64,000 nt of DNA, from the NCBI GenBank assembly GCA_002189035.1, contig NEEC01000007.1:310001-374000 (forward strand), read 5' to 3'. Under the pieces are notes generated by a model that was not told the DNA's origin, did not search any database, and worked only from the letters and a program-made list of their open reading frames with translations. Positions 19,119 to 48,316 of the stretch are shown in pieces (the stretch's first letter is position 1; the number at the start of each line of letters is the position of its first letter). The stretch comes from Utricularia gibba. Taxonomy: Eukaryota; Streptophyta; Magnoliopsida; Lamiales; Lentibulariaceae. A program made the position numbers and the translations under genes.

Positions 19119-20407
19119 TTAAGCAGCGCTAAACGAGCTGAACGGAAGTGTCAGCTGTTCGAGCAGCGTCGTGATCGGAACCGTCAGCCGGGGCTCGTAG
19201 GGGAAGCCGTGCAGCTCGTCGATGCCGTTTCCGATCAAATACGGACACGGCGGAATCCAGGACCACTGTTTACTCAAAAAATCAAACAGCAGCAACTTCT
19301 CGGACCCTCTGATGAGTATCGCCACTGAATTCCATTGCGCGACGCACCCAAATCCTCTCCCATTTTCGATCTCTGCAAACTCGTTGTACAGTTGCTGCGG
19401 CATTCTCTCCATTTCCATCCACATTCCCCATTTTCATTCAGACTCCAGATCCGCAAACTTCTCGGTACGTTCAGTTTACTTTTTTCAACGGCTGCGATTA
19501 ACATCAGTCTTCCCCTGCTTTCCACCAGGCCAGGGGATCTCAGAAACCTGCGCATGGGAGCTTGGATTTTGCTCCATTGATTCGAAGAGATGTTATAGGA
19601 CAGAACTGAGAAAGGGCTGTAGTTCATGCAGTAAAACCTTCCTTCTACGTGAACCATCTTTCCAGATTCCAGACTACAGAGGCGGGGCAGCGTCGCGGTT
19701 GTTCCCCAAACGGAGTAAAACCCGCCTCCGTCAATGTGAAAGCTCTCCGATGTTAGATTCTTGACTGCGTATGGCGATATCAAATCGTCGCCTGCGAAGA
19801 CCAAGTCTATGGAGGAGTTGGTCACGGTTAAGCCGACAGAAGGACAGAGCCTTGGCCTTAACGTTGTTGGTAACTGGATAAACGTGCCCAGTAATGGATT
19901 TGAAAGAAGGATGGATTTTGATCCAGCTTCTTCAGAGACCCAGCAGATTAATCCACTGGACGTTGAAACAGGAGAAAACCCAGGTGGGATTGAAGGAAAC
20001 GAAATGCGGTACCACTTCGAAGTGTCAGGATCAAGGAGATAACCTTCGTAGGATTCTCTTGAGATGGGCATGCTGTTGCTGGAGGTCGAAACCGAGGCGT
20101 TTCTGTAAATGTGGCCTTTGAGGTTCTTCTGCTTGAAGAAGAGGAACCAATGGCGGGAAGGAGAAAGTTGGAGGTATAGCTCAAGAAAGGCATTGGAGAA
20201 TATGAGAGAGTACCATCTTTTGCAGACCGATCGGAATCGAAAGAAGGCGGGTGGCGGTAGAAAGACGAGAACGCGATCGATCAATCGCTGGGGGAGTCTG
20301 CTCCAAATCCTGAAGTTCATTGTGGAAGAGGTGCTGGAGGTTGAGTTGATGAAGGCGTTCAAAGAGTAGGTGATTGGTGGAGTGAATGGAGGATGGAAAG
20401 GATCCAT
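19119..20407 (-). CDS. UFO: UNUSUAL FLORAL ORGANS (UFO) F-box gene, apparent one-base frameshift
   Basis: From the ATG at 20407 the intronless frame gives MDPFHPPFTPPITYSLNAF, then an F-box at about residues 33-77 (IWSRLPQRLIDRVLVFLPPP, CKRWYSLIFSN). The Kelch-like C-terminal region includes ICWVSEEAGSKSILLSNPL, AGDDLISPYAVKNL, CSLESGKMVHVEGRFYCMNY and QAPMRRFLRSPGLVESRGRL. Near 19426 the homology moves to another frame (MWMEMERMPQQLYNEFAE to LLEQLTLPFSS), which ends at the TAA at 19119. Together they cover about 430 residues, close to Arabidopsis UFO (442). The shift equals one missing base in a run of four G (sense strand). UFO is the substrate adaptor of an SCF ubiquitin ligase and a cofactor of LEAFY in flower development. 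The identity is certain; whether the break is real is not. Confidence 0.93.
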
Positions 20408-21568
20408 TTTGCAGGAAAAAGATTCGATCTTTGGAAGTGGGAAGTAACTCTTCTCAATTTCAGTGTTATTGCAAGAAAAAAACAGTTTATTGGAGTGGAG
20501 ATGGTTGGGACTTGGGAGTGAAGGGGTGTAAGTAAATGTGTTTATATAGGCAGAGGAGAAGTCCCACTTGCTCTGTTTTTATAGACAGGAGACAAGACTC
20601 ATGTAACAAATTGAAAGTTCACTATGGTTTTTTAGGTGAGAAATGAAAAGGGGAAATAAGTGGACTTTGATGGATACATCCATGAAGAATTTTCTGGAAG
20701 GAAATGAAGGATGTGAACCTGAGCTGACTACACAAAATAACTTCAGCCACAGCAAAGAATAGTGGGGAGCAATGTGAATTGAACAGGCGCAGTTCCCTTT
20801 GCAACTGATGAGTTAACATACTCTTTCAGAACTGGGAGTTGGATTTTGGTGAATTTTGGTGGCAGTGGTGAGTGAGTGATCGAAATTCAAGACCCCTTCA
20901 CAAAAGTCAGAGTCTTGTTCACATCAATCCTTTGTTAGTAGAAAAAGCAAGGATACCTGTTTATGGGAATTGTGGGCTTCCTCCAAGAAACCTCTTTTAA
21001 AAGGAAAACTCTTTCATCCCAAAGATGGAATGCTCCCCCCTCAAGAAAACCCCGTCAAGTTGTCAAGAAACAGTAGAGATCCCAACGCTTTCTTTGTGTT
21101 CAACTTGTCTGCTGATGCACAGACCACACACTGCACGGCTTTGTTGATGTGTTTTGACTTGTTATTCTGCACAAATATGGCGCCGTTTGTTCGGTGGGTG
21201 CTCCTTATTGTCTTGTGGGCACCAGCCACTCTTCATCTTAGTGCTAGGTGACGCAAACCACGAAGATCCATACTTGTTAGTATAAAGCACACCATATTGC
21301 TCTCTTGGGTATCCCTAAAGTCACTGGCGCGTTAACGTAACAGGGGAGCATCCATTCAAGGGAATCCCTGAGATTATCGTACAGATGGAGAAGAAATTAG
21401 AAAAGCTCTCCACAAATCGTTTAGAGCAAAAGTTACTCCACTAATGGGAGTGAATACTTTCATTTTGGGAGATCAGTAGACATAAGATCAAAATAAGATA
21501 GCCATGTTCTTATTAGAGTGGACAGGGGGGAGAGCTGTTGAAGGTAAATGTAACTGAGAGTTCATCAA
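20408..21568. other. UFO upstream region and PUR7 3' flank
   Basis: The 1.16 kb between the UFO start (minus) and the PUR7 stop (minus) holds the UFO leader and promoter and, at the far end, the PUR7 3' untranslated region. Open frames here (for example around 20970-21251) show no family resemblance. Confidence 0.5.
20541..20548 (-). promoter_or_regulatory. TATA box of UFO
   Basis: The minus strand reads TATATAAA here, 134 bp upstream of the UFO start codon, so transcription would begin near 20510 with a leader of about 100 bases. Position and sequence fit a canonical TATA box; not tested. Confidence 0.6.
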
Positions 21569-23647
21569 TCAAAGAGATGAGAGCGCGGCCGACACATTGC
21601 GGATGAGTCTGTCATGAACAGGCTCCTGCACGAAGGCACAAATGGCTCTTTTGTTACATCTTCGGAGACCACTATCAGCAGAAGGTAAGGTGTACCTCAG
21701 TTGATGGGATTTCGAACTTTGAATTGGTTATTGTCTCGTACAACAGGATATACCTCCAGGCTAATTCACACACCAGCTCCTTCGGTGCATCAGGCAACAC
21801 CTTTCGCAATTGTCACCAAGAGTAACAATCATTAGATACATCCAGATGAACCAGAAAACTTTAAAAAAAAGTGCATCCTTGCGCATATTCATTACCTCAT
21901 CTTCGTAGGGGTTGCAATGATTCTTGAACCACAACCTCAGAAATTCCTTTAATAAAAAGATCAAGATATGAACTTGGCTACACCTATGCTATTTATGAAG
22001 TGGGGGAATATATGGATTGTGCAACTCCCTATCTGAATTACAAATAAGATTCACACACCTTGTCAATATTCTCAGGTTCAAGTCCTTTCTGAAAGCGCTC
22101 CTCATAGGTATCTGCAATCCAGTACCTGCTTGAGTCTGGTGTATGCACCTAAAAGAGATTATGCAAATTAGCACCAAGGCAGCGCCATGCAAAAGAGAAT
22201 AAATATTTAGTTTTCATCAGAAACGAACCTCATCTATTAAAAGAATTGTGCCATCTGCCCCTTTCCCAAACTCATATTTTGTATCAGCCAGTATCAGGCC
22301 ATGATCACGTGCAACTCGCTGAACAATCATAAAGTAGTTGTTGAGGTTGCAGTAAACTCAAAAACCTTACTCGCTCATGCATTTTTTTTAGTAATCTAAG
22401 TACCTGGCCATAAGCAAAAAGGTCTAATGCTGCTTTGCTTGCTTGATTGAACTCGGCTTCAGTCATCAGCCCTTGCTGAATAACCTGTGACACAAAATTT
22501 TATTAGATGTGTATAATCTGGGTGACCAAAATTAACAATATCAATCCAGTGCGCTGACTTCTTTGGGTGAGATGGGAACATCGTGATCAACAGCTTTTGT
22601 TGTTGGTGTAAGTATATTTTCCGGCAACTTTTGGCTTTTCACCATACCTACATCAGATATTTGCAACTGTATCATTGTGACATACATGAAGAAGATGGAG
22701 TTTGGTTATAACAGCAAACCTCACCATCAGGAAGAACATTGCCACAGTAATTACGAACACCTTTCTGGTAAACTGTCCAGAGTGATGTGTCAGTACTCCC
22801 AGTGATGTAGCCTCTAACTAAAAAAAAAAAAAACGTCTGTATTTCAACAGTGCCACAGGTTAGAAAGTGTCTTGTTTATAAAAATGAAAGTAAATTACCA
22901 ACAAATTCAACTGGGAATACTGAACACTTTTTAACAATAGTGACATTCCTATCCGGGGAGCAAAGAACTGCATTTGGAACAATGTGCTGAGTCCTATGAA
23001 ACCACCACAAACTTGTCTCATTGAGAACCTGAAATTCAATAACGCTGCATCACCAACGTCTAAGGGCAATATCTCTTCCAGCGAGACAGTGTCGAATACA
23101 AAACAGCAGATGGAAACACGGAAGGTCTAAAAAAATCCACCAAGCGCCACAAGTACCTGACCCTTAAAGGGAATCGAAGCAAGAACTCTATCAAACGCAC
23201 TTTGCCTATCGGTTGTGATCAGGACAAGATATTCTCCTCCATCATAAATATCTCTCACCTTCAAAAACAATTCTTTTGAACAATTCGTGGGTAACATTCC
23301 TAAAAAATAAAAAAAAAGCAAGAGCCAACCTTTCCTCTGGTCTTGGAACGAAGACGTGTAACAGTTGAATGAAGCTCTGTCTCCGAAAGACAACTACCAA
23401 CTGAGTTTTGAAGCGCGTTCATCAATTCTTCTTTCCTTCCGTTGTAGTTTCTCAATCCGACGATTGGTGTGGGCACAGTGCTGGGTTCTGATGATGAGAC
23501 CGCCATTGAAGGAAACCTTTTATGATTGTGATCCTCCATGATCGCTGTTTTCCAAGAACCCAGTGAACTCAAGGCGGAGTTGGCGCGCAAGAAGTGTCCT
23601 GAACTCAGGTGCCCGGAATAGTGCAAAGACCCACAATTCACTGCCAT
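21569..23647 (-). CDS. PUR7: SAICAR synthase, plastid purine biosynthesis
   Basis: The enzyme joins carboxyaminoimidazole ribotide to aspartate in de novo purine synthesis. The ATG at 23647 begins [19 protein letters not shown], a serine-rich plastid transit peptide. Exon products join in frame: TRLRSKTRG, then [20 protein letters not shown] (the N-terminal ATP-binding signature), [30 protein letters not shown]-like and [15 protein letters not shown]-like segments, [58 protein letters not shown] and [20 protein letters not shown]. The terminal exons give [20 protein letters not shown] and [15 protein letters not shown] with a TGA at 21571-21569. About ten exons. This is the plant PUR7 type (At3g21110). 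Confidence 0.95.
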
Positions 23648-24189
23648 TCCCGCTTAGACGGCAGGAGAAAAGACTTTGCGCGAACAGCAAGACTCCTCCA
23701 ACCTCCTCAGATGTCACAAAAACCGTACCAGAAAGAAGCAGCAAAGAGCGCACAAAAAGCGGAAATGGAAGCAGAATCATCGCCGTACTGTTTTTGTTTC
23801 CTCTGCTGCTTATCTTTCCTAACCCTAATTTCATTTACTAATAAGTTAATCAAATATGATAATATAATAATTGATTATTCCATAGACCAATTTTTTAAAA
23901 CCCTAACAAAACAAGAAGCAGTTGATAGTGTACAAGAATTCAATTAGGCTATATTAATTTTAATACAATATTTATTAATATTTAATTCAATCACGATTTT
24001 TAAATATGATTCCGTTAGATTATTCCCGCACAAGGCTCATTTATTACTCTGACCAAGGCCCATTAATATGTCGTGTAAGAAGGCCCATTGAAATGATTTT
24101 GGACCCATTTGATAAAATGGCCAGCCCGTTAAATGCGGAGCTCATGATCTTCTCCAAGTCACTGGGTGGTTGGAGTTCTTAGACTTCCG
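23648..24189. promoter_or_regulatory. Divergent promoter with telo box and site II motifs
   Basis: The region separates the starts of PUR7 (minus) and the PheRS gene (plus), 542 bp. AAACCCTAA, a telo box, lies at 23898-23906, and a related TAACCCTAA near 23820. GGCCCAT occurs at 24057-24063 and 24082-24088, about 100 bp upstream of the PheRS start. The middle (about 23930-24010) is AT-rich. Confidence 0.6.
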
Positions 24190-26627
24190 ATGGCGTCTTC
24201 AGTGGCGAATCCCTTGTTGTTCTCAAAGCCGTCTCGGTTATTCCTCGCCAGGGCCAGGTTTTCTACAGAGAATTCCACTTTTTTGTCGAAGTCTTCCATT
24301 TCATTCTGCGCCAGAGCTCTATCGTTTTGCCAAAGGTATCCATCTTTCTCCACGTCCTCTGCCTCTCTGCGTCAAGACAAGGTTCACGCGCTCGAGATAA
24401 CTAGCGAACCAGCGGTCGAATTCTCTAAAGAGGGTAACTCTCTTTTTCTTTTTTTGAAAATTTTCATTTTTGTGTTGCTTGCGCATTCCAGATGCTGATT
24501 CCGGGGCATGGAAATGCTCAAATCCAATTCTTTGCCTTGTTCTTTTTTTGAAAATTTTCATTTGATTTGAATCGGATTTTGGAACTATATGTATTACATA
24601 CTAACTGATGATTCACTATTTGATCTTTAACTGCTGTGAAGGGAAAACCCCATTTCATTGATTTGATTTCAATGCGCATATGGTTCATAGTTTCAATGTG
24701 CCACCATGAAATTGATGTGTTCTTCTGGTTTTCATCAACTAAAATGACGGTTGGAAGCCTGAATGAGCAGAGATCGTGAAGGATGATCCATCAAATAATG
24801 TGCCCGATTCGATTTTCTGCAAGCTTGGGTTCCAGCTTCATCGGCGGGATAAGCATCCTCTTGGCATTCTAAAGAATGCAATACATGGATACTTCGACAG
24901 CAATTACCCTAATAAGTTTGGGAAGTTTGATAATCTGAGCCCAATAGTTTCTGTTAAATCGGTATGTAGTACTTCAACGATGAGCATGCATTTCTGGAAT
25001 GTGTATTTCTTGTTATGAGCTGTAGATTCAATAAATGATATTTTGCTATGGTGTTTCAGAACTTTGATGATGTGTTGGTGCCTGCTGATCATGTTAGCAG
25101 GAGTTACAACGATACCTATTATGTGGATTCTCAAACTGTGCTCAGGTGCCATACGAGTGCTCATCAAGCTGAGTTACTTAGGGCAGGACATACTCATTTT
25201 CTGGTTACCGGAGATGTTTACCGTCGAGATTCAATCGACTCTACTCACTATCCTGTATTTCACCAGGTTTGCTGTGACCCCACCTTTTTTTTCAAACCGC
25301 CACTATGGCATTCTGCACCTGTTGCTACTCGAATTCTTGACTATGTCTTTGTGTATCACTACAGATGGAAGGTGTTCGTGTTTTTACTCCAGCTGAATTT
25401 CAGGGATCAGGCTCTGATGCAACATCTTATGCAGCTGAGGATCTAAAGAAGTGTCTGGAGGGTTTGGCACGGCATCTTTTTGGTATACCTGGAGAGATCC
25501 CTTTTTGTGCTTTTTAACAATGCAGGTGCACTTATGCTATCGCCATTTCAAGAATATGGGGCACAGAGAAAGCTTGGAACGTAAGCACACAATTGAGAAC
25601 TCATGTCATTGTGCTTATAAAATTGCAGGAAGTGTGGAGATGCGATGGATCGACACCTACTTTCCATTCACGAATCCATCATACGAATTGGAGATATTCT
25701 TTCAGGTTCGTAGCTTTCCCTCATCACCTCAATGATTCCGCAAAAGACAAGCACTCTCTGTAGCTGCCGAACACAGAGTAATCAGCCAGCCCGATTCAGG
25801 AAAAATGGCTGGAAGTGTTGGGATGTGGGGTGATGGAACACGAGATTTTAAAGACAAATGGAAGGCCAGATGGTGTTGCTTGGGCTTTCGGCCTTGGACT
25901 GGAGCGGTTGGCTATGGTTTTATTCGATATCCCTGACATCCGCCTCTTTTGGTCAACAGATAAACGATTTACCTCACAGGTATGGTGTTTTTGTTCAGAC
26001 TTGAATCATTTCTAGTGGCTGTGCTCATTTTCGCTTGTCTCATCTAGTTCTCCGAAGGAAAGCTTGGGGTTAAGTTCAAAGCCTTTTCAAAGGTATCACT
26101 GAAACTTCCACAGCTTCCTGAAAACCATTTCCTCTACAGTTCCTTCATTCAGTGAAACTGAAACCTGCAGTATCCACCTTGCTACAAAGACATAAGTTTT
26201 TGGATAAGCGATTCATTTACAGAGAACAACCTGTGTGAAGTCGTTCGAGGCATTGCCGGAGATCTCGTAGAGGAGGTGCAGTGCTTAAAACCTTTCTTTA
26301 GCAGCAACACTCTTCTCAAAATAATTCCTGCCAGTTCGGCCAAACACTTTGCTGACTTGTCCAGGTGAAACTGACCGACGAATTCACCAACAAGAAAGGT
26401 ATGACGAGCCACTGCTACAGAATCGCCTACAGGTCAATGGAGCGATCCCTCACCGATGTAGAGATTAACGATTTACAGGTACTGCTCCCATGAAAAAGAA
26501 CCCTTCTCTCCATTCATACTCAAGAACCTGTGAAGTTGAAGTTCGTTAAGGACACATCTGTGCTTTTGAAATGTAGTGGAAAGTGCGGGAGCAAGTGGAG
26601 GAGAAGCTGAAAGTTGTTCTGAGATGA
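24190..26627 (+). CDS. Organellar phenylalanyl-tRNA synthetase
   Basis: The monomeric organellar PheRS charges tRNA-Phe in mitochondria and plastids. The start is the ATG at 24190 ([20 protein letters not shown], a serine/arginine-rich targeting peptide). Exons join in frame: [57 protein letters not shown] (class II motif 2 region), [50 protein letters not shown], then [17 protein letters not shown] (motif 3). The C-terminus is the ferredoxin-fold anticodon-binding domain ([38 protein letters not shown]), ending KLKVVLR and TGA at 26625-26627. It matches the Arabidopsis dual-targeted enzyme At3g58140 by recall. Introns are short. Confidence 0.95.
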
Positions 26628-27296
26628 AGGAATGGCAAGTGCTGGATGGCGAATGTCTTCGGTACCTGTTTTTCCGAACGTGTTTTTATATGATTCTTGG
26701 TATACCATGTTATATACCAATGTTTAAGAGAAGCTATGTTTAGTAGACTGACTGATCAACCACTTGGTTAAAGCGCTGTGAATTTCACCCCTGCTTACAT
26801 TACTTTGTGTGTGGAGCTCAGAGGAAGCACACCAATGTAACAGGGATTGGGGCCTCGCAGCCCATGAAGCCCTCGTTTTGGGCCGGATTCTATAAAATGA
26901 CCCATTTGTGCCTGTTACGGCCCACTGGTTTGATAAAATGGCCCATGATGTAACGAATTTGGGTCACAGTTTTTATGAAGGCCCATTATGAAATGCTCAC
27001 TTCTTGTTTCCTCCGCCGTCATTTCCTTGGAATCTGTTGTTGTCGCCGCCTGTGGGTTCCGCAGGTTCGCCGCCCGCGTCTCCGCCTTTTCAGTGAGTAC
27101 TTCGGCTAGATGATTGAATTTATTCTTCGTGTAGTGCAATATATCTAATGATTCGTTTCTTCTGCTGCGTGAAAAAGGGTTTTCGTTTTCGAAATCTTAA
27201 TCCTCTTCCTTGTCCCGATTGATTTGCAGATTTTAGCTGGAATTGGTACAGATTTTTGGTTAGTTATATCGCAAAAGGTCTCGTTGGTTGCTGAAA
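26628..27296. promoter_or_regulatory. mL12 upstream region with site II motifs
   Basis: This 669 bp holds the PheRS 3' untranslated region and the mL12 promoter. AGCCCA or GGCCCA motifs in either orientation occur near 26859, 26879, 26919, 26940 and 26980, a tight cluster over about 125 bp. A likely 5' leader with an intron (a TTTGCAG-type acceptor near 27225) lies between the cluster and the start codon. Confidence 0.55.
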
Positions 27297-27949
27297 ATGA
27301 GTTTTATCGCCAGAGCGAGGCATCATTTGCCGTTTGGGTACTTAAGAACCCGTATCTGCTCTCCGGTGATCACTGGGTTTTATCCTGTAAAGTCTTCTGG
27401 TGTAGCGAGGAACTTCGCACAAGCTGTGAGGGTGGAGGACGAAGAGCACGAGGAGCTAGTGGACATAGACCAGAGAAGGCTTCCGACAGATTATGATCCG
27501 GCAAATTTTGATCCAACAGAATATCGTAGCCCCCCAGTGAGAGAGTTTGGAGGCTTGTTGACGAAGTCTCTGGACTCACGCTTGTCGAGGCAGCGGAACT
27601 TTCTTCTATTTTGATGCGCAAGTTGGGCATGAAGGAGGCCCCTGTTGTAGGAGTCATGAAGCCAGGTGCTGCTGGAGCAGCAGGATTGGGACCGAAAATG
27701 TCAGCGAATGCGACCGAGGAAAAGAAACCTGAGAAGACAGCTTTTGAGTTGAAGCTGGAGTCCTTTGATGCAGCCTCAAAACTTAAGGTAATCAAAGAAA
27801 TTAGGACGTTCACAGAGTTGGGATTGAAGGAAGCCAAGGACTTGGTTGAGAAGCTGCCGGCAGTTCTCAAAACAGGAGTTTCAAAAGAGGATGCTGAAAA
27901 AATACTAGAGAAAATGAAAGCTGTTGGTGCCATTGTCGTCATGGATTAG
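27297..27949 (+). CDS. Mitochondrial ribosomal protein L7/L12 type, apparent one-base frameshift
   Basis: The ATG at 27297 starts MSFIARARHHLPFGYLRTR, a basic mitochondrial presequence, followed by a linker (LPTDYDPANFDPTEYRSPP). At a run of six C (27530-27535) homology leaves this frame and continues in the next: VWRLVDEVSGLTLVEAAELS, the L7/L12 oligomerisation domain. The C-terminal domain FELKLESFDAASKLKVIKEI, ELGLKEAKDLVEKLPAVLK and KMKAVGAIVVMD ends at the TAG at 27949. One missing base in the C run explains the break. The arrangement matches Arabidopsis At1g70190. These proteins form the stalk of the large ribosomal subunit that recruits translation factors. No intron is seen in the coding part. 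Confidence 0.9.
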
Positions 27950-28209
27950 CTTCTTACTGGCGTCCATTTTTCATGGTGTATTATCCGGTGGTCAAGATTC
28001 ACTATTTGGAGCCTAGGTTTCTTGAGCACATCACACAGCTGCACAAGATCATTGCTTTTGAGATTCAAAGAAATGAGGGCCTCTTTTCTGCTATCCCTCA
28101 TGTGGGAGGAGCAAAAGGGTTCAAAAGCTGAGTATTTGAGATGAGAATGCGATATTCAATCATTTGACGTTGCATTGAAACGAAGAGAATACTTCAAACT
28201 CATAGTTCT
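27950..28209. other. Tail-to-tail spacer
   Basis: About 260 bp between the stops of mL12 and the KUP transporter, presumably both 3' untranslated regions. Confidence 0.5.
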
Positions 28210-31200
28210 CTATACATAGAAGATTTGGCCAACATTCAATAGACTTTCATGAGGTACGTTGAATATAACACTATTCTCCCTGCACATCCTTCTAAGAAAC
28301 GCATAAATGTAGTCTATAGCTATTTTCTTCACAATGGAAGACTCTTTCCGGGCCCTTACCACGGTGTTTCCTAGAATGTGAACAACTCCGGTGTCCCGGC
28401 AATGGTTCAGGAAATCCAACTCATCACTCTCACTATCTGATTGGCCGCTGTCGTGCCTGGATGAGGTGACTGTTGTTTGTCCACGAAAGGGTGATCCAGC
28501 AGGGACAATGGAGTCTCCTGATCCTGATGAAATGGTAATATCAGTATTTGCAGTGTACGCCTGAGGGATATCATTCATTTGCGAGGCTCTGGAGTGCTTC
28601 ATTCTCTGGTTATATACACTGCCGACCTCAGAGTCGGAGCATCCTTCCATCATCGACTCCAGGCGAACGAACATGAAAAGGCGCTCAAACAGCTTCCGCT
28701 CGAAGTCCTCATCCTTCTTATGCAGATCCTTGTAGCCGTACCTCGCAACACAACGGAACATGTGGTAGTTCTTTGGCCCTATACGTTTAACCAGAAACCT
28801 TTCATCTGCAGGGACTGTGTACACCGGGAGGTACTTGACGCAGACAAAGATCACAACAGAGTGAACGGCAGGTAAGTTGGTTATGAAGTGGGAAAAGATA
28901 CGCGGCACCCCGCTTGCTAGCTCGGTGTAGACGAGCCCTGTCCCCGGCACACGCACCAGGCCTAAGCTGGGTCCAAGGCCTAGGATCCAGGCCAAGGAAA
29001 CCTTGCTGTGCAGCTCAAACTCATACCTCTTGAGTGTACCATAATGCCAAGTATACATGATGAGGAGGAATACAGCAGCGATCACCAGCGGCACCCAGCC
29101 CCCTTGATCGAGCTTGAAGAGCAATGCCGAGAAGTAGGTGCATTCAACGGCCAACGACATGGAGGTGAACACCAGGACTATCATCCAGTGACAGTGCCAA
29201 ACCAGTAGCATCACCAGTGTCATGATAACGGTGGTAACCAGCATGACGACGCCCACTGCCGTGCCTGATTCGAAGGGTATTGGAACATGGGTCTTATAAC
29301 TGGAGGAATACCAGATTTTAATGAGCAGAATTGTGAAGCACTGACCATAGGCATTGCCGATCTGGCTCTGATTCCCAAAACCAGCAGTAACAGCAATGCA
29401 GAGAACCATCAGGATCCAGTTGACATCAGGGACGTATATCTGCCCCAGGAACCTCTTCGAGGTGTGAACAACTTTGACTCTCGGAAAACAGCCCAGCGCA
29501 TGTGCCTGCTTGATTATCGAGAATGTGGCGGATATCGTGGCCTGACTAGCAACAATAGCAGCTAAAGTTGCTAGCAGGAAAACTGGCCAGTAGATTCTTT
29601 CTGCAGTCACATTTCAAGACAGGCAGTCAGATTCCCAGATATAAAAAGCGGAGCTATAGAGAAGGTAACTGCCCCTACCAGGAATGGAACGATAGAAGCA
29701 AGCATACACATGGTCTTTGTTAACCATCAGGTATGCTGCTTGGCCACAGTAAGCTAGGAGCAGACAAGGGAACACGATGATTGTAAATGCAAGCTGTATA
29801 GCGAGAACCGGGAAATGAGCAAGATCAGCAAAAAGTGCCTCCGTTCCTACAGTTAGAAATGGACAGAAGCTTAGCAGCCACGAACAGGCCGAACAAGAGA
29901 GGACAAGTGAACTGTGCTTGAGACCTGTGATGCATAGCATGATCCCGCCAAGGGATATCCACCCTGTTTTCTTTGTTCTCTGGAAGTAGCGATAAATGTA
30001 GAGAGGGTAAAATGCTTTCAGAACAGAGGCGTCATACTTGTACAGATTGAAAATGCCAATGCCTCCGATAACAAGAAACCACAGCAGTACAATGGGAGCA
30101 AAGAGCCAGCCAACTCTATCAGTCCCATGGTGCTGCATACTGAACAGCCCCACTAGTATGACAACAGCGACGACAGTAACGACCTCTGAATTCAGATGCA
30201 TCGTCATTTGTTAAGGGGGATAAAAAAAAGCACACACTGCACGTAAGAAATCATACCACTAGACATGTGTGGGTGGTCTACTTTGATCCCTCCAGAAGCA
30301 GAAAGAACTGTTCATGGTTATGCGCAATCAGACAAGACAATGACAGCAGAAGCAGGCATTAATGGTAAGAACACGGCACTACTAGCTAAAGAGCATCGAT
30401 GCCTGGAGGGTGAAGTACCAGAAATTGCAGGTGTGAGAATTCCATCACCAATTACCATGCAAGTTCCTATGAGGACCAGTACGAGAAGAGCATTCCTTTT
30501 GAAAGAATCAGTCTCCAGCCATCTCTTCGTTTTAGCAGCAAACGAGTGCTCACTGAATGTGGTACGGCTGTATGTGGTTAGCTCCTCGTCAGTCCGGTGT
30601 TGATTCGGGATCGTTTTTAGCTTAGCATGCCGGCAAAGCAGTGAGTAGAGTGCAAGAGTTCCTCCTTCAAGGTAGAAAAGAAGTGCAAGAGCCTTCAGAG
30701 TCAACAAAAATTAAAGCAGGATGCGGAAGTAAACCACGTTCTTGATGGCAGTTGAACTAACTACTTTAAGCAAAGTGGAGTATTGGTGGCTAGGAGACCA
30801 CACCTTGGCTGTTGTCATTTGCTCTGCATACAACGAAGACATACTTGAGCAGAGGTATGAGTGTCAATGAATATATGATCAATGAGAGGGCTCCAATGAT
30901 ATCCTCTGTGTTGTCAATTCCTTGAGGAAAAGTGTTGTAGAACACATATAATGGAGAGGTCCCAAGGTCCCCATATACTACTCCAAGGCTCTGGAACGCA
31001 AGCCGCAAGAGAACAAATGCTGAAAATGTCTGCATCATCATAGGAGTCAAGCTTCTGAAACGTATAATTCCTGAACTACAGCAACCATCAAGTACCAACA
31101 TCAACATCAGACTCTTTTACAATAGCCGTGTGTTCTACAATAAGCATTTCAAATGAGATGTTTTGACTTTCGTACGAATTCTACTGTTTTAGTAAAAGGC

Positions 31201-31579
31201 ATCTCAAGCAGCATATGAAGATTTAAAACCAGAAAATAATTGAAGGCTAGCCACTTTCCTCAAGCAATGAAACCTGAAGCAAATGGCAGGAAAACAAGTA
31301 ATTTAAAACCAGGCGTCGTTCTGAACAAACTTTTAGATTTTACTTTTCTCGCGCAAAAGGCATGAACCGAACACCTTCTTTGATGAACTTAAGTAGCAGC
31401 AGAGTCAACAAGCATGAAATCAAGAGAATAAAGACTATTTTTTTTACCTTCTCCCTGTACGTATCGTTGAGCTTTTCAGCTTCTTCTTCCAAAGGCTGAT
31501 CAAGCTTTTGCTCCAGAACCCAAATACCTCCTTTGGACCCATTACGTCTTTCTTCAGAATCCGAGCTCCCAGATGCCAT
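28210..31579 (-). CDS. KUP10/KUP11: HAK/KUP/KT potassium transporter, KUP10/KUP11 type
   Basis: The start is the ATG at 31579, giving an acidic cytosolic N-terminus ([20 protein letters not shown]). After a long intron (about 31448-31032) come the membrane exons: [20 protein letters not shown] (the family signature), [99 protein letters not shown], and from 29600 [20 protein letters not shown] and onward. The soluble C-terminus ends [12 protein letters not shown]. This ending and the N-terminus fit KUP10/KUP11 rather than KUP6/KUP8. The protein should be a plasma- or vacuolar-membrane K+ uptake carrier. An 81-bp intron (29345-29265) is in frame with no stop. The next gene on the same strand matches the Arabidopsis neighbour of KUP10. 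Confidence 0.93.
29265..29345 (-). other. Exitron-like 81-bp intron inside the KUP coding sequence
   Basis: Splicing NAYG|gtcagt...aatcag|GC restores the family sequence [17 protein letters not shown]. The intron is 27 codons, in frame and free of stops, so unspliced transcript would encode a longer protein with an insert between transmembrane segments. Confidence 0.7.
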
Positions 31580-33473: not shown

Positions 33474-34429
33474 TTATGCATCCAGGTTTTCCATCTGAAT
33501 GCTGCTCTTCAGAGGCACATACTCCCCAAGGTATCCACCCAAATGATCATGAAGAACAGACTTATCGATGCTCTGATTATGATAGCTCTTGCAAACATAG
33601 TAAAACACACTCTGAACCAGAAGCCCGACCAGGTTCACAATCACCAACACAGCAACGAGAAATCCTCCCACAATCATCCTCGATAGAACTGTGTATTCGT
33701 CTCCTCCACGTACAACAAGTGACCCAAAGAGGCCATTAATCACACCACAGACGACAAAGTAACAGAAAACCAGTGAGAACCCCATGCCAGTCTTACCCTT
33801 CAACAGCTCATAACTCTTCCTCATTGCGGCAAAACCATAAACAGGCTCAAGAACAGACACCACGCTAGCAAGATGCCACAATGCGCTTATGTAGACGTGC
33901 ACGCCAAGAAATAACGACATAACAATCACAAAAGAGATAAAAAACAACAGCATACTGTTCATGTCCAGAGAAATGATGAGAAGCACGAGAGACGCCACGA
34001 ATATAATGCTATAAACAACCATCATAAGAGATACCCACAAAAGGTGATAAACAGTCGCTTCAGCACTTTCGGAATCGCGGCAATGGTGGAGGAAAAAGAC
34101 ACGGGCTTTGAGGTATAAAGCGAGGCGACGGTAAACACGACCGCGGAGGTTGAGAGAAGGGAGAAAGCGAAGAGAAAAATGAGGTAAAAGAACTGAAACG
34201 CGAAGAGTTTGGACCAATCGGAGGAATTCGCAGCCGTTGGATCTTCCTGAAGCTGTGTAAGAATTGGATTAGTGAAGAGTGAGTGAGCCAAAATAGCGAA
34301 AGAAAGGGGAAAAATCAGCGTTAGGGTTATCAGGTAGAAAGTTCTCGGGGATTGCTTAGGAATCTCAATCGACTCCTTGAGAACATCCAAAACACTCAAG
34401 AACTGGAGTTGCTCCGCCGCCAGAGCCAT
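33474..34429 (-). CDS. Multi-span membrane protein (At1g31130 family), apparent one-base frameshift
   Basis: The ATG at 34429 begins MALAAEQLQFLSVLDVLKES, then hydrophobic segments including YLITLTLIFPLSFAILAHSL and LIFLFAFSLLSTSAVVFTVA. At about 34040 the frame breaks after KVLKRLFITF, and homology resumes in the next frame: WVSLMMVVYSIIFVASLVLL, ISALWHLASVVSVLEPVYGF, SYELLKGKTGMGFSLVFCYF, and the end VCKSYHNQSIDKSVLHDHLG with YLGEYVPLKSS, stopping at 33474. The break equals one missing T in a run of four. The protein has about six predicted membrane spans and belongs to a plant family of unknown function typified by At1g31130. In Arabidopsis that gene neighbours KUP10 (At1g31120), as here. 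Confidence 0.9.
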
Positions 34430-36180: not shown

Positions 36181-36506
36181 ACAATGCACTGCAGAGTTCA
36201 TGTATCTGGTGCCACTCCGTGTGAAGAACAGCCCACCCGGAAATAAGTTGTCTTAGAATGGGGAGGAGTGCCTTTCTGAACATTCGTTTGTGGGAATGCT
36301 TGGGAGATTTCTTTTTCTTTTGTACTTTTTCCTAATTATTTTAGATAAATAATGTGAAGGGACAATAAAAAAAATGTAAAAAAATATAAAAAAAGAATAA
36401 TTGTTTTTTTTCTTTTAAAAAGAAAAAATGTATGGGTTCTTGTGGATAGATTTTTTAAAATCTCACCTTAAACCCTACCTCCAGATTTCCAGCGGCGCTC
36501 TGGAAA
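36181..36506. other. Spacer with an A/T-rich low-complexity run
   Basis: 326 bp between the H-protein stop and the CPN60A2 start. 36361-36427 is almost entirely A and T with runs of A and T, probably around the polyadenylation region and the next promoter. Confidence 0.5.
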
Positions 36507-39152: not shown

Positions 39153-39490
39153 GAACATGCGAAGTCTTTCTTCTTACATGTGTTGCACTGTTGTCCGAAG
39201 AATTTTTTCTCATTTCTTATGAATGTTTTGTGATAACGACTCCATCCACTTTCTCACTATTGATCCTATCGCAACCCACCACGCAAGTCCATGAACTCTG
39301 ATGCGCCCGTAGCAAGAACCGGGCCATCTGTGGGTATTTTTCACAGGCCCAAGGTGACGGTCCGTTGAACATGGACGCTGAGAAAGGACTCCATCTTCTC
39401 CAATCTCCCATGTTTCTTCTCGGAAGAAAGAGGTCTCTTTTGGGGGGATAGTTGATACCTTTCTTTCAGCGCGTCTCTGATCCCATTTTC
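39153..39490. other. Short spacer before a PPR gene
   Basis: 338 bp with the CPN60A2 3' region and the promoter of the next gene. A single AGGCCCAA motif lies near 39348. Confidence 0.45.
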
Positions 39491-41650
39491 ATGGTGTCTC
39501 TTGTATGCCGTCAGCTGACTAAAGCTCATACTCGAAGTGCAGCAGCAGTCAAACTACTTCTAAATGGCGCTATCTCTTCCCTTCAAGATTTCACGCCTTT
39601 CCGCCAAATAACGACAAGCAATGATTCCGATTCAGTCTTGCCGCCCACAGTGATCAGAAGAGTTTGCTTTTGGGTCTGTGATTCATTCTACAGCCAAGAT
39701 AAGAAACAATCGCGGACCATCCTGGAATTGCCTATAGATTCTGATTTCTTAACTACAGAACAGGCTATTACGGTGGTTGCTGCCCTGGCTGACGAGGCTG
39801 GTTCAATGGTGGCATTGAGTTTTTTTTACTGGGCGATCAGTTACCCAAAGTTTAGATATTTTATGAGATTTTACATTGTATCTGCCTCATGTTTCATCAA
39901 GAACGCAAATTTTGAGAGAACCCACGAAGTTATTCGATGTATGGTGTCTAACTTCGCGAATGTTGGGTTACTGAAGGAGGCTGTGGACATGGTTTTTCAG
40001 ATGCGGAGCCAAGGTTTGCTTCTGAATGCCCATACATTGAATTGCTTGTTGGGCGTGATTAATGAACTTGGTCTCGTTGAGATGGCTGAGAAGGTGTTCG
40101 ATGAAATGTGTCAGTGCGGAGTGACTCCTGATATGTATAGTTTCAAATCTATGGTTTTGGGGCATTGTAAGGTTGGTAGAGTCGCTGATGCTGACAGATG
40201 GGTGACTTCTATGTTGAACAGAGGTTTTCTAGTGGATAATGTTACATGTAGTCTAATTCTGAGGGTGTTCTGTGAAAATGGTTTTGTGAATAGAGCATCG
40301 TGGATATTTAATACTCTGGTGGAAAGGGGTTTGGAACCAAATGTAATAAACTATTCATGTTTGATCAACGGATTGAGCCGCAAAGGAAGCATTAAGCAGG
40401 CATTTGAACTGCTGGAGCAGATGGTCAGCAGTGGCTTGAAGCCAAATGTATATACGCATACTGCTTTGATTGATGGTCTTTGTAAAAAAGGTTGGACTGA
40501 TAAGGCATTTAGGCTTTTCCTAAAGCTTGTCAGGAGTGGCAATTACAAGCCAAATGTGCACACATACACGGCCATGATCGATGGATATTGCAAGGATGGA
40601 AGGCTGAACAGAGCAGAGATGATGCTTGAAAAAATGCAGGAACAAGGACTGGTTCCTAATTTGAATACGTATTGCGCACTTATTGATGGCCATGCTAAGA
40701 ATGGAGATTTTGACAGGGTGTATGAATTGATGGATGAAATTCAAAGGCGAGGCTTAACTCTGAACACTTGCACTTGTAATGCTATCGTTGATAGTCTTTG
40801 TAAGAGGGGTAAGGTAAGAGATGCTTACAAGTTGCTCAGGAGGAGTTTTCAAACCGGAGTATCGGCCGATAAAGTGACATATACAATTCTCATATCTGAA
40901 AGTTGCAAGCAGAAAGATTTTGAGCATGCATTAGCACTTGTCTGTAAGATGATAAAAAGCGGAAATTCACCTGATATGTTTACTTACACTACCTTGATTT
41001 CACAGCTTTCCAAGCATAACAGGATGAGCGCCTGTGAGCGTCTTTTGGCAGATGCTCGTAGAATTGGGCTTGTTCCCACCACAGAAACATTTACTTCTAT
41101 GATATCTGGGTACTGCCAAGATGGGAAGAGTGAAGTTGCACTTGCCCTTTTCCGCGAAATGTGTACCAAGGGGCTGACTCCTGATAGTTTCGCTTATGGA
41201 GCAATAATTAGTGGTCTTTGCAAGGAGTCCTTGTTGGATGAAGCTAGAGCTCTTTTTGACGATATGATCAACAAGGGTATATCCCCATGCGAGGTTACTC
41301 GAATGGCGATCGCATATGAGTTCTGCAAAAGGGATGATTTTTTCACTGCAGTAAGCCTGTTAGACAGGCTTGAGAAAAAGCAGCGGACTAGAACTGTAAC
41401 CTCTTTGATCCGAAAACTTTGCAGTGAACAAAAAGTAGATATTGCTGCAAAGCTTTTTATTAAGCTTTTAGAATCAGAGGATGTAGTGGACCGTGTAACT
41501 GCTGCGGCTTTCATGACTGCATGCTATGGAAGTAACAAGTATGCACTTGTTGCTGATTTGTCTGAGAGAATCAGGACACAGAAGGTTCGCCTTACCCACC
41601 GTTCTTCTGGTAAGTCTGAGCCTTTGATTGAAAACAGTGGTCTGAGCTGA
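39491..41650 (+). CDS. P-class PPR protein, At4g19890-like, intronless
   Basis: A single frame of 719 codons starts at the ATG at 39491 (MVSLVCRQLTKAHTRSAAAV), a basic organelle-targeting N-terminus. The upstream part of the same frame has no ATG. From about residue 150 the protein is a tandem array of at least 13 canonical 35-residue P repeats, for example NVINYSCLINGLSRKGSIKQ, NVYTHTALIDGLCKKGWTDK, NVHTYTAMIDGYCKDGRLNR and DSFAYGAIISGLCKESLLDE. P-class PPR proteins bind organellar transcripts to stabilise, process or activate them. Length and order resemble Arabidopsis At4g19890. The last 80 residues are less repeat-like. The RNA target could be guessed from residues 5 and 35 of each repeat but I have not attempted it. 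Confidence 0.93.
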   Translation: MVSLVCRQLTKAHTRSAAAVKLLLNGAISSLQDFTPFRQITTSNDSDSVLPPTVIRRVCFWVCDSFYSQDKKQSRTILELPIDSDFLTTEQAITVVAALADEAGSMVALSFFYWAISYPKFRYFMRFYIVSASCFIKNANFERTHEVIRCMVSNFANVGLLKEAVDMVFQMRSQGLLLNAHTLNCLLGVINELGLVEMAEKVFDEMCQCGVTPDMYSFKSMVLGHCKVGRVADADRWVTSMLNRGFLVDNVTCSLILRVFCENGFVNRASWIFNTLVERGLEPNVINYSCLINGLSRKGSIKQAFELLEQMVSSGLKPNVYTHTALIDGLCKKGWTDKAFRLFLKLVRSGNYKPNVHTYTAMIDGYCKDGRLNRAEMMLEKMQEQGLVPNLNTYCALIDGHAKNGDFDRVYELMDEIQRRGLTLNTCTCNAIVDSLCKRGKVRDAYKLLRRSFQTGVSADKVTYTILISESCKQKDFEHALALVCKMIKSGNSPDMFTYTTLISQLSKHNRMSACERLLADARRIGLVPTTETFTSMISGYCQDGKSEVALALFREMCTKGLTPDSFAYGAIISGLCKESLLDEARALFDDMINKGISPCEVTRMAIAYEFCKRDDFFTAVSLLDRLEKKQRTRTVTSLIRKLCSEQKVDIAAKLFIKLLESEDVVDRVTAAAFMTACYGSNKYALVADLSERIRTQKVRLTHRSSGKSEPLIENSGLS

Positions 41651-41813
41651 TTTCTGTATTATTCGCTTTGGAAGTTTTGAAGAAGAAAATATTGCACCTT
41701 TTGCTGATATTCTGGGGTAGTTCAGTCGAAATTTGCAGTGGATATCCTGTCACGGGAAAGAAGGGTTGACAAAGTTGGTTTGATAGAATTTAACGTCACT
41801 GGATGCAAGCCGT

Positions 41814-42140
41814 TTAGTTTTCGGGAGTAAACTCCGATTGCATTCTAGCCAGGCAGACCGAGAGAGAAAGCTGCGCTTCACGGCACTGGTTGCGCTTGAG
41901 GGCGGTACCCGCGCTGGAGCACAGGCTGCGTACGGCTTCCGATTCCGAAGGACAGGCTTCTAGCACGAGGCACTGGGCCAACGAGCGGTTCAAATGGCTG
42001 CACGCCACCTCACGCGACAGGCCTTCGGGTATCCGGCGGTGGCAATCGGCTAATGAACGGTGGAGCCGATCGCAGCCGTTTCGGCGTCGCGGCCAAGGAT
42101 TGTTATCGGCTGCAGCTTGATCTGCGTTGGAGCCTTCCAT
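41814..42140 (-). CDS. Small CX9C (CHCH-like) protein
   Basis: A single-exon frame of 108 residues starts at the ATG at 42140. It contains three CX9C spacings: CDRLHRSLADC, CSHLNRSLAQC and CREAQLSLSVC. Two more cysteines (CLVLEAC) lie between the second and third, and another (SLCSSAG) after them. Twin CX9C proteins are imported into the mitochondrial intermembrane space by the Mia40 relay and often assist cytochrome c oxidase assembly. Localisation and role here are inferred from the cysteine pattern; I do not recognise a named orthologue. It lies head to head with cytochrome c6A, 104 bp between start codons. Confidence 0.8.
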   Translation of the reverse strand: MEGSNADQAAADNNPWPRRRNGCDRLHRSLADCHRRIPEGLSREVACSHLNRSLAQCLVLEACPSESEAVRSLCSSAGTALKRNQCREAQLSLSVCLARMQSEFTPEN

Positions 42141-42244
42141 TCCTTCAAAGGCTCTAGGAGAAACGACAATTCCAAGATCTCGGCTTTAAATGTTGTACGC
42201 AGGGGTTTCTAGGATCCGGACGCGGGTCTAACCCTGATCAGGAC

Positions 42245-43420
42245 ATGGGCTTCCCGAAAAGCATCTGCCCACCCTTTCCCACTGGGGTTCTCTTCTTCAC
42301 CAGAGATTCGTTATCGATGTTGGGAATCGATGGAGTCCAGCAGCTGGCGCTCCCTCGCCTTCCTCGTATGGGTATCTGTCTTATCCTGAGGACTTCCCTA
42401 TGCCTTACTTGACATTTTCTCATTAAGTTATATGTCGTTTCTGTAACCGCAGCCGGGAAAGAATTTGTGGAACATGGAACACTTTCCAAATCGGCGAAAC
42501 ATAGTTTGATGGTGACATTATTTGCTCCGCCGCTTGTTGCGGCGGTTTTATCTTCCTCCTCCATGGCTCATCCTCCAGGTAAAACTAAAACCCGGTTATC
42601 CTTCATCGCTTTGTTGATTCCTTTGCCATGGGTTGTGATGGAACATTTTTTACTTTCACATATGTTGGAAATCAGTGTTTTGGGCGGACTCGCGATAGAG
42701 GCTATTGTCGTGCGTCTTCTTGTTCTGGGTGTTCATATTTCTGCTGTTACCCAGTTGCAGTTGGGCAAACTGTGGATTCACAAAAGGCTGCTGTGATATT
42801 CCAGCGGTCATGCATTGGATGCCACGATGGCGGTGGAAACGTAATACAGCCGGTGAGTTCTAACGTTTAGCCATTTACATACTGTGAGCAAAAAGATTGT
42901 TCTATGAACAGCTGATTCGAAAATCTTGAGAGTGAAGTTCATTGTTCATCACTTTCCCGGGTGGGAGATTCCATCCTTTTCATTTTTGTATCTTTGGTCA
43001 TTCCTTTCAGGGAGCAACGCTCTTCTCACAGGATCTAACAAGGTAAGCAAATGAATCAACCTCTGGCTCTTTGATGGGAGCATTCACCTCATGCAGTGAT
43101 GCAAAAGAAAACTATGGGAGTTTTTGCAGAAATGGGGTGTATACAGAAGAGGAGATATATCGTGTCACTTACTATGGGAAAAGCAGAATGCCTGTGAGTT
43201 GCTTCTTTCTCTTGAATTTTGGAGATAAAATTAGGACGCAACAGACCGGATCTTTGAGTCCCCGTGCCAAATGCAGGGCTTTGGAGAGAGCTGCACCCCA
43301 CGAGGGCAGTGCACGTTTGGCCCTCGCCTGACGGAAGACGAGATCAGGCTGCTGGCACAATTTGTCAAGGCGCAAGCAGATCAAGGCTGGCCTAAGGTTC
43401 TTCAACCTGAAGGGGAATAA
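42245..43420 (+). CDS. Cytochrome c6A, thylakoid lumen
   Basis: Six exons join in frame from the ATG at 42245 (MGFPKSICPPFPTGVLFFTR). Exon 1 ends near 42371. Exon 2 encodes the thylakoid transfer segment (LMVTLFAPPLVAAVL). Exon 3 starts the mature protein (VGQTVDSQKAAVIFQRSC) and holds the haem motif CIGCH. Later exons give GATLFSQDLTR, NGVYTEEEIYRVTYYGKSRM (with the axial methionine) and GFGESCTPRGQCTFGPRLTE, ending at the TAA at 43420. The two cysteines in ESCTPRGQC mark the loop insertion peptide that sets cytochrome c6A apart from algal c6. The gene matches Arabidopsis At5g45040. Its function in the lumen is still debated, perhaps thiol redox sensing. Confidence 0.95.
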
Positions 43421-43848
43421 AAGGTGAAGCCAACGTACATTTAACATCATATTTGATCTAGTCCCGGAGTGGAATCAAAACCCACTAACACGCCTGGAAT
43501 GTTTTTGAAAATGAACAGATCATCGAAAGAGAAATGATGAACAAGAGAAAGCCGATGAAGGTGAAATTAGTTCTGTTTCTCTGGTATTGAAATCCTTTAT
43601 CTCGCCTGTTACACAAACGAGGAGTTCTGTTTGCATATGATCCATTTAAGCAGGATTATGAAGAAAATTAAGCTATATTCGTCATATCTCTGGCACAGAC
43701 GCCAAGATAGAATATGATGGATGCAGCCTCACGCACATGAAACAGGAAGCATGAACTCTCAGCAATCATGAAATTTATTGTCAACAACAGAAAAGCTTGA
43801 TGCTAGAATAGAATGCATCATTCAGCAGTTGTTTTTGACCCCTCATCT
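43421..43848. other. Tail-to-tail spacer
   Basis: 428 bp between the stops of cytochrome c6A and the PP2-like gene. No coding frame or repeat seen. Confidence 0.5.
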
Positions 43849-44656
43849 CTACTGATTTGGAACTGGGTCCTTGGGCTTGATGATTATCCCGTAGATCGTA
43901 AGTCCGCTTTTAAGGGTGTCACTGCATTCTTTCATACTGAACTCCATCTTACCCTGTGTAGGGGATCTGCAGGTGTACACTTTTTTCCATTCCCCCTGGC
44001 ACTCCGACAGACTTACTGTTTCAACGGGTGATTCTTGGTTGGGGAATTTGAAGGTGATAGTTACTGGAAATTCCTTAGGGCTGCAATCCATCAACGCGAA
44101 TCTGAACACGAAGTCATACGTCCACCCCGGTGTAAGAAGAGACATGTCGAATTCTGCCGTCACTTCTAGCCAACGAGCCTGGACGAGTTCAGGGACCTTG
44201 ACAGGATCCCTCAACCTGCAACATCAACTGTGTCAAATCCAACGGTTGCTCCTCAAGATCACGGCATGAATCTGTTACCTGATCCCAGGACCGTATCCAT
44301 TGTTTCTATTGGACCACCTCCAGAACTTGCTGTCCTCACACCAGGCTATAGAGAGACCTTTCGGAAACAAGATGAAGCAGTTCCTCCCTTTGTCAATCAA
44401 ACAGTACGCCTGCGCACGATTAGACAAATCAAAACTCTATTAAGGTTGATTCCTAGAGCCACTCACCCACCTTCTTGCGATCCATGTAGGCTCCGGGAAA
44501 ATTGCCGCTGTAATCTATGTAATCTACGCGTTCCCCAAACTGGGAGAAATGTTGAACCGCAGCCGAAACATCCCATTTTGCTGCTCGATCTTGGCTGTTT
44601 CCCATGGTGCAAGAACTTTGGAGTATCGCCTCAACGCGGTTCACTTGTGCTGTCAT
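43849..44656 (-). CDS. Phloem protein 2-like lectin (PP2-A9/A10 type)
   Basis: Three exons are read on the minus strand. Exon 1 starts at the ATG at 44656 (MTAQVNRVEAILQSSCTMGN); an alternative start is the ATG at 44605. It ends near AYMDRKK. Exon 2 gives AYCLIDKGRNCFILFPKGLS and IAWCEDSKFWRWSNRNNGYG, the start of the PP2 (Nictaba-like) domain. Exon 3 gives VPELVQARWLEVTAEFDMSL, TYDFVFRFALMDC and LTIYGIIIKPKDPVPNQ, stopping at 43849. The PP2 domain binds carbohydrate in some members; these proteins occur in phloem exudate and in stress-induced nucleocytoplasmic lectins. Exon 1 is the least certain part. Confidence 0.82.
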
Positions 44657-46388
44657 TTATAATAAACCAGAGGAGGAATCTAACTCTCCTCCTGGCGGTG
44701 AGAAACTTCTCACTTATTCCCCTAAAGATAGCAGCAGATTCCATTGTAGGCGTGGAAGATAACAACATCCGCACTACAATCGTATCTTGTTCCTTCCGTC
44801 AAACAAACCACGACATGGAATTGATTCTCTGGCCCATTGGTTTATGAATCAAGCTTAATATTCACGGTTGAAGCTGACTCTGGCGCTCGCGCATCTTGCT
44901 TTATTCTCCGCTTTCGCTTTTGCTTTTGCCTGCGCCGCTCTCGCAGCCGTAGGTTCGTCGTCCTCTTTCCGCTCACCAGAAGTTTCTTCAGAGCGAGTCG
45001 TACGGACGATTCAGGGTCCCTACTGGGCTGGGCTGTTGCTCTTCCAGCCCAATGGGTTGGCCGTGGCTGGTTCTCCAGGTACGGACACTTCCGTTCAATG
45101 AAGTCAAATTATTTCATTTTTTTAAATACTAATATATTTTAATTTCAAAGGATATTAATTTTCCTACTGCTGGCTTGACCTACAAATTATGAGCATGAGC
45201 TTCCTGGTTGGGGTCTGTTCAATTAATGGATTCCTATTTATTTTTATTATTCAATTTACGAATAATTCGTGTCCTTCTGTAGGGTTTCAATTTGGTATAT
45301 TTTACCTGCAATTTTTGGAATTATTTAAAAGAATGGTATAAAAATACTCTTGTTTATTTAGAATTGAAATAATAATTTCAATCAAGTTTTTTTGTTTATT
45401 ATCAAAATTACTAAAAAATATAATTTATTATATAACTAATAAAAACTATATATTATATTTGTAACTACATATCTAATTATTTAATAGTTAAAAATAAAAA
45501 AAATTTCACGGAAAAGGGATGGTGGTGGCTGTGGAAGATTCCTAAGCTAAGAGGCTTCCCGTGAACGCAACGGCATGTGCCTCGGGAATCTTTTTTCATT
45601 TTTTAATGACTTTTTCCAATTTATTAAAAACCGTTTTTCAGGGTAAAAAATGCCTTATTTTTTCTGTAACAAATAAAAAGAACAGAAACGGATAGCTGGT
45701 ATTATACTTTTAATAAAAAAAATAAAATTCACTGTTAAGGAAATCTTGGAGGTTTTGACAAGTGTGATTGGGACAATATATTTTGTCTGATTAGGTTCCC
45801 ATTTGCGTTTCTTGGCTCTCCTAAATTACTAGACAGAAATGTTCTCAGGAAAAGAAGGGTCGTCAGGTGGATTAATTGTTCGTCAGAATCAGAGTTATTG
45901 CTTTTACTGGGTTATTTAATTTTTCCCGTTTTTGTATCCAACCGGTAATTGAATGATTTCCTTGCGTTTCGGTTGTAGTGTAGTTGAGGGGAGAATTATT
46001 GATGCAAGAGATCAGTTGAAAGATGATTCTTTGTGAGAAGAGTAGGGGGTGAAGCGTCATCATTAGTTACAGAAGTGGGTGTTTCCTTTACGGCTGACTT
46101 TTGTTTAGGAACAAAGAAAAATTGTTGATCCCCTTGTTTCTCTGGTGGGATCTGCTTTTTATGGTTGTTTTTTTTTTTTTATGGAGTAAAGAGCGGAAAT
46201 TGCTTTCAGTATGTACTTATTTTTGAAACAATGGATCTCCAAGTGATGGGCAGTTTGCTGCGAGGATCGGATTTTCTTGGAGCGCCAATTCTTGTTTTTT
46301 GTTGAGTTTTGAAGATAATCGGTTCTTTTCACGCATCCTTCAGGTTTGGGCGGGGAATCTATAGATTCAGTTCTAGGCGATCAGTGAA
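44657..46388. other. AT-rich divergent intergenic region
   Basis: 1.7 kb between the heads of the PP2-like gene (minus) and the RBR gene (plus). 45100-45730 is strongly AT-rich with T and A runs and no coding frame. Around 45028-45060 there are TGGGCT/AGCCCA motifs. The last 400 bp may be the RBR leader. A stretch at 44868-45101 reads as a signal-peptide-like frame but has no ATG. Confidence 0.5.
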
Positions 46389-48316
46389 ATGGAGGAAAGA
46401 TTAGTTGTCGCTGATAGAAAGTGGGGGATGAAGCTCTGAGGCTCAAGTTGGAGGAAGACGAGGAAGAGTTCAAGAGTTGCTTCGAGGACGAGGATGAATT
46501 GAAGGATAGAGAAGAACGCCATAGGGTAGATTTCAAGGGAAGCACTTGCTTTGATGATGATCATGTAAAGATGTACATCAAGGGTGTTTCTGTCTCTGGC
46601 CCTGGAGATCGTGGCTCTAGAATTTCTGGAATTGGTGTGGTTATAGAGAGACCCGGCAATGTTTCTGTGCTCCAAGTCCAAAAAAAACTTGATTTTTATG
46701 TCGAAGAGCTGGTTGCAGAATATCTAGCTTTACTGGATGGCTTGGCTTTGGCTATCCACAATGATGTCCGCAGGATTTCTGTGCTAACAGATTCGGAAGT
46801 TATGCATACTCAGGTGATGAGCTTTTTCCTCAGAAGTTTTTGGAAAGATTAGTAATTAGATAGGTGTCTATAAATGTGTTTAAAATCCGGTTAGTTCTTG
46901 GAAAATGTGTTGATGGCCTTAACAATGACATAGAACAAATAGCATGCTTATCATTTTTTGGTTGTTTTCGTTAATCGACATAATTGGATGAAAGCCTCCT
47001 ACTGTAGTTCTCTCTTGTTTCCTGTTGTCAGCGATGGAATTTGCTCTTTCATGGTATATTCCGGATGTTGATGCATGTTAACATGTGAGGATATGCTGTG
47101 TAAATGTCTCTCAGCTTATGAATGATGAGGACGCTGTTGACATTCCTCTGGTTGAGGCACTCAGGCAAAGAATACTTGAGCAAGTCAATGTCATGGAAGC
47201 TTTTGTGTTGAAATTAGTCTCTACGGCAACACTGGAAAAGGCTTTGCATTTAGCTCGAGCGGCTGTTGGTTTCGTATCCACCCCAGATGAGGGAGATGGA
47301 TCTGCAGAAATCTGCTCAATCTGCGGCAAGGAGAGGCTCTCAGGCATGATGCTCACAATCAAATGTTCCCACAAATTCTGTTCCCACTGCATGAGATCAT
47401 ATGCTGAGAGGAAGCTGAAATCCGCCCAACTGCCTATCAGATGTCCTCAACCAGGGTGCAAGCATTGCATTTCTGCATCTGAGTTTAGGTCCTTTCTTAC
47501 AGTTGTTTCATATGAGTCGCTAGAGAGGGCGCTCGCAGAGGCAAATGTCATTTGCTGCCCATATTCTAGTTGCACAGCTCTTCTAGATCCTCATGACTGC
47601 TGGTCGACTCGGGCTACTTCGTCGAGCCAGACTGATCGCATATGCATGGAGTGCCACGCCTGCCAACATTTATTCTGTCTGGACTGTAGACTTCCTTGGC
47701 ATCCTTCTCTGACATGTGAAGAGTACCAAAGCCTTCCGGAAGACGAAAGAGCTGCTTCTGATTCGTCGTTGCATCGTCTCGTGCACAGTAAACGATGGAG
47801 AAGTTGTGAACATTGCAGAAGGGTCGTTGAGCTCACCAACGGCTGCTACCACATGCGGTGCTGGTAAATCCATTTCACCTTCAAATCCAACTGTATGATC
47901 CATAAGTCATTGCTCAAGATCTTTCTTTTTCCAGGTGTGGCCATGAGTTCTGCTACACATGCGGCGCTGAATACAGGGATTGCCAACAAACTTGTCAATG
48001 TGCACTTTGGGATGCTGACTACTCCATTGACTTGACATCGTATCCTCCTCCAAACGTAGAGGAATGGGCATGGGATTCGTTCGGGTCCATTCCATTGTCG
48101 ATGGATGCGTACTCAGAACAAGAGAGATCCCAGCTAGAACTAATCCAGAGGTTCCTTGCTGGAGGCTACAGTTTAGGTGAGCATGATTCTCATCAAGCTC
48201 CACCACGCTGCACTGACTCATATGCAGAGACAATGAAGTACCTTCATCAGCTGCCCTGGCTCGAACGATTTGTCTCCGTCATAACAGACAATTACTACGA
48301 AGGCTACGTCCAATGA
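46389..48316 (+). CDS. RBR E3 ubiquitin ligase with N-terminal RNase H-like domain, apparent one-base frameshift
   Basis: Exons are about 46389-46813, 47115-47863 and 47935-48316. The ATG at 46389 gives MEERLVVADRK and meets a stop soon after; the main frame (DEALRLKLEEDEEEFKSCFE) lies one base off across a run of five G (46423-46427), so one G seems to be missing. An RNase H-like domain follows (SGIGVVIERPGNVS, FYVEELVAEYLALLDGLALA). The RING-IBR-RING unit is CSICGKERLSGMMLTIKCSH, then CPYSSCTALLDPHDCW with CMECHACQHLFCLDCRLPWH, then CEHCRRVVELTNGCYHMRCW and CGHEFCYTCGAEYRDC. RBR ligases pass ubiquitin through a RING2 cysteine; the C after HMR is the likely one. The substrate is unknown. This RNase H-RBR fusion is a known plant family. 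Confidence 0.88.

Follow-up and report, generated by a model that had tools for sequence, protein, structure and literature searches.

Three genes in the window, the 64,000-nucleotide stretch of DNA analysed here (G000:C213:310001-374000, from an assembly totalling 100.1 Mb over 516 contigs), have each lost one base in or next to a mononucleotide run while remaining otherwise conserved, and these three breaks are very probably one-base deletions left over as errors in a long-read assembly made without accurate short-read correction. A sequence-only reading of the window had listed four single-base breaks at such runs; those in the UFO-like, mL12, and membrane-protein genes stand, whereas the fourth, in an RBR zinc-finger gene, is an intron (Table 1).

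Table 1. Genes of the window with a reported frame break, and the sequence at each break.
Feature	Position in window	Strand	Remarks
UFO-like F-box gene	19122..20407	-	F-box and KIB1-4 beta-propeller domains; both halves matched by two paralogues
GGGG (coding strand) at UFO frame break	19426..19429	-	1 base missing within ~20 bases
Mitochondrial ribosomal protein mL12 gene	27297..27949	+	Ribosomal_L12 C- and N-terminal domains; PDB hits to bL12m; ATG at 27297
CCCCCC at mL12 frame break	27530..27535	+	One base short
Plant membrane protein gene	33474..34429	-	Intact whole-genome-duplication (WGD) homeologue on C508, 91% aa
AAAA (+ strand; TTTT on coding strand) at membrane-protein break	34039..34042	-	AAAAA in C508 homeologue
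RNase H-like and RBR zinc-finger gene	46418..48316	+	Intact at reported break site
Ordinary GT-AG intron, 71 nt, taken for a deletion in the sequence-only reading	47864..47934	+	Frame restored on removal

The first frame of the UFO-like gene spans 19426-20407 and the second 19122-19433, with an upstream stop codon and homology to F-box paralogues confining the break to about 20 bases that include the GGGG run. Two intact F-box paralogues have four residues between the halves aligned to UFO, equivalent to one missing base. The gene is single copy, with no close second copy in the genome, and a PDB search with it returned no relative. It is very improbable that this sole UFO gene is truly truncated by the one-base loss, with ~100 C-terminal residues gone; if it were, flower development in this carnivorous plant would run on a shortened or replaced UFO. 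The mL12 gene is complete apart from its single break, with the homeologue on contig C508 in frame across the CCCCCC site, though decayed elsewhere, and a PDB search with the N-terminal part of mL12 found no relative. Between the membrane-protein gene and its C508 homeologue, the AAAA/AAAAA difference is the single indel in ~980 coding bp. The runs at the three sites are short as assembled, at 4, 6, and 4 bases for UFO, mL12, and the membrane protein respectively. Runs of at least four bases cover ~5% of the bases of intact GRAS coding sequence, such that all three sites would fall in such runs by chance with p ~1.5e-4, a value that is optimistic given that the UFO site is located only to ~20 bases. 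In the proline-rich stretch near 8 kb, which had been suspected of a similar frame problem, no conserved frame was seen.

The RBR gene had been described as lacking one base, and its reading frame does shift; the 71-nt GT-AG intron accounts for this shift, with the sequence outside 47864-47934 joining in frame as ...CYHMRCW-CGHEFCYTCG.... Three RBR paralogues (L018, L020, and L022) apparently carry an interruption at the same codon; two others are uninterrupted. That all four breaks are lesions, as first proposed, is therefore barely credible.

The sequence at C508:245001-275000 is colinear with window positions 7-64 kb and forms a homeologous whole-genome-duplication block with fractionation, in which UFO has no partner, mL12 is matched by a decayed pseudogene, and the membrane-protein gene by an intact copy. 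The C508 counterparts of the HAK transporter and trihelix genes (window positions 29869 and 51819) also seem to have one-base losses, lying in very short runs or in none. Fractionation, the true decay of the C508 mL12 copy, which carries a 107-bp deletion and several indels, and the intact relatives of mL12 and the membrane protein would all suit a reading in which the window genes are real recent pseudogenes, copies losing function after whole-genome duplication through slippage in short runs. Independent pseudogenes would be expected to show several varied lesions and relaxed constraint, however, and each of the three window genes has one lesion, with the membrane-protein gene equally conserved on either side of its break (Ka/Ks of 0.089 upstream and 0.083 past it); the resulting range of 0.08-0.09 applies to this gene, the one of the three for which constraint was measured. 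Furthermore, UFO has no backup copy, and the same type of lesion is seen again across the genome, in HSP70 and DELLA-type GRAS genes, almost invariably as a loss and almost always of G or C. Recent pseudogenisation is thus very unlikely to explain the three breaks.

Beyond the window, 26 further frame breaks were found in GRAS, HSP70, and P450 genes. The GRAS genes contain 15 contiguous frame splits over 48 kb of matches, of which 12 amount to a net one-base loss and three to the other shift; the exceptions include a PAT1-like gene on C244, which reads as two separate losses, and a gene at the end of contig C414, which lacks several bases relative to its intact duplicate. Six breaks were found in 34 kb of HSP70 matches and at least five at the ends of P450 matches, every one of them a net loss of a single base. 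The P450 table alone shows no frame splits, which is not a clean negative, as matches ending early hid these breaks. Histone genes show no breaks in 9 kb, a sample too small to be informative. Once the three window breaks are added, the tally is 26 net one-base losses among 29 breaks (p 8e-6 under equal odds, 0.004 if losses were twice as frequent as gains), two of the remaining three holding several losses, and the lost base is G or C in 23 of 24 clear cases (p 2e-8 to 6e-7), with these counts depending on how the junctions were read and with related genes treated as independent. In plants, spontaneous slippage occurs preferentially in A/T runs, opposite to the G/C bias observed here.

The fraction of GRAS sites that are broken rises with the inferred length of the G/C run, from 1/602 at three bases to 4/34 at five and 5/5 at seven, a trend with few cases at lengths six and seven and with true lengths inferred from frame. 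Five GRAS genes are broken in one and the same G/C-rich GGPP codon stretch, in which the runs of intact paralogues are interrupted; a GRAS split on C4, considered as a sixth such break, proved to be a GT-AG intron. Three of the five are of DELLA type (L058, L059, and L060, on C375, C142, and C2), and work on gibberellin signalling that relied on this genome might mistakenly score them as lost. Genome-wide truncation of the G/C run spectrum at length seven was rejected, with 2,706 runs of seven against 14,854 of six giving a ratio of 0.18, which fits that of shorter runs; sevens are not depleted, which counts against the artefact reading. The losses and their rise with run length are consistent with a process in which consensus calling would under-count bases, mainly G and C, doing so more commonly as the run lengthens, with every dropped base shifting the frame of an intact gene.

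Comparison of contigs that carry the same locus gives a direct view of such losses. Over 4.1 kb, C316 differs from C412 by one substitution and 10 gap events, with all of the missing bases absent from C316. Similarly, one GRAS locus has an intact copy on C422 and broken copies at the end of C414 and the start of C416, with no substitutions and missing bases only. These differences are best regarded as assembly errors, alleles differing by losses alone being less likely. Over 1.9 kb, C376 and C413 differ by one gap in each direction and one substitution. Between copies of the same locus, indels thus far outnumber substitutions and losses outnumber gains, which, with the rise in breakage with run length, is as expected of long-read error. 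The clearest of these errors lie on small contigs or at contig ends and the window lies mid-contig, such that they establish the type of error rather than its mid-contig rate. No duplicate contig covers the window, so the window sites were judged from relatives and the genome-wide pattern, from which we infer an artefact at each individual site.

Two HSP70 loci, L077 (C304:2236000-2236500) and L078 (C241:17540-18060), share an identical one-base loss at a G run. The loci are identical over at least 500 bp and then ~1% diverged, and C241 was rejected as a redundant copy of C304 on the basis of 16 substitutions in 1.4 kb. The shared lesion may reflect a systematic error or a genuine lesion of older date and, as the flanks have diverged, some breaks may be real or systematic. 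Not every break need therefore be a random error, and the membrane-protein site, an A/T run unlike 23 of the 24 others, in a gene with an intact homeologue, counts against an artefact there. A mixture, in which most breaks in the assembly are errors but one or more of the three window breaks is a genuine mutation, is nevertheless unlikely, with the Ka/Ks of the membrane-protein gene showing no sign of relaxed constraint. A long-read error signature, rather than independent pseudogenes, had been proposed for the window from the outset, and this is borne out by the common direction of the breaks, the bias towards G/C runs, and duplicate contigs that differ almost solely by missing bases.

The mitochondrial COX1 (L081-L082, on C515) carries a double cysteine (LLLLCCSALVEVG), which we take to mark Utricularia; the gene also has a large intron with an open reading frame inside. 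An exclusive cox1 mutation is common to Utricularia and Genlisea (PMC5749785). The genome is probably that of a Utricularia, likely U. gibba, in a long-read HGAP assembly; its size and contiguity agree with U. gibba, which is described as 88x PacBio with HGAP (PMC5793159). The sequencing platform is accordingly deduced rather than directly observed, and we infer that short-read correction was missing. The description of the assembly as “without polishing” goes further than the evidence, as the likely source used HGAP, which has Quiver as one of its steps (PMC5793159), and it is safer to speak of residual errors in a long-read-only assembly.

The breaks probably represent an artefact of an already known kind, a data-quality issue that recurs across the assembly rather than biology. 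With approximately one likely false break in every 3-16 kb of conserved coding sequence, UFO, several DELLA-type GRAS genes, and HSP70s would be among the many intact genes counted as pseudogenes. Claims of gene loss drawn from this assembly should not be relied on before a check against accurate reads. The plant is studied for gene loss and genome shrinkage, and the error bias runs towards the expected result.

In comparison of a PacBio consensus with Sanger sequence, 783 deletions and 8 insertions (791 errors) were reported, some at high coverage (PMC4787755), and homopolymer indels that break frames are described as common in long-read-only assemblies in PMC8812927, which cites Watson and Warr 2019. 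The breaks described here resemble the indels of such assemblies (PMC4787755, PMC8812927) in being single-base, deletion-dominated, associated with runs, and disruptive to the frames of intact genes, but differ in that many occupy G/C runs that are short in the assembly (2-6 bases) and in their high density within conserved coding sequence. They also resemble decayed plant WGD pseudogenes, in that the frame is disrupted in one of two homeologues; unlike these, of which the C508 mL12 copy with its several varied lesions is an example, the window genes carry one lesion each.
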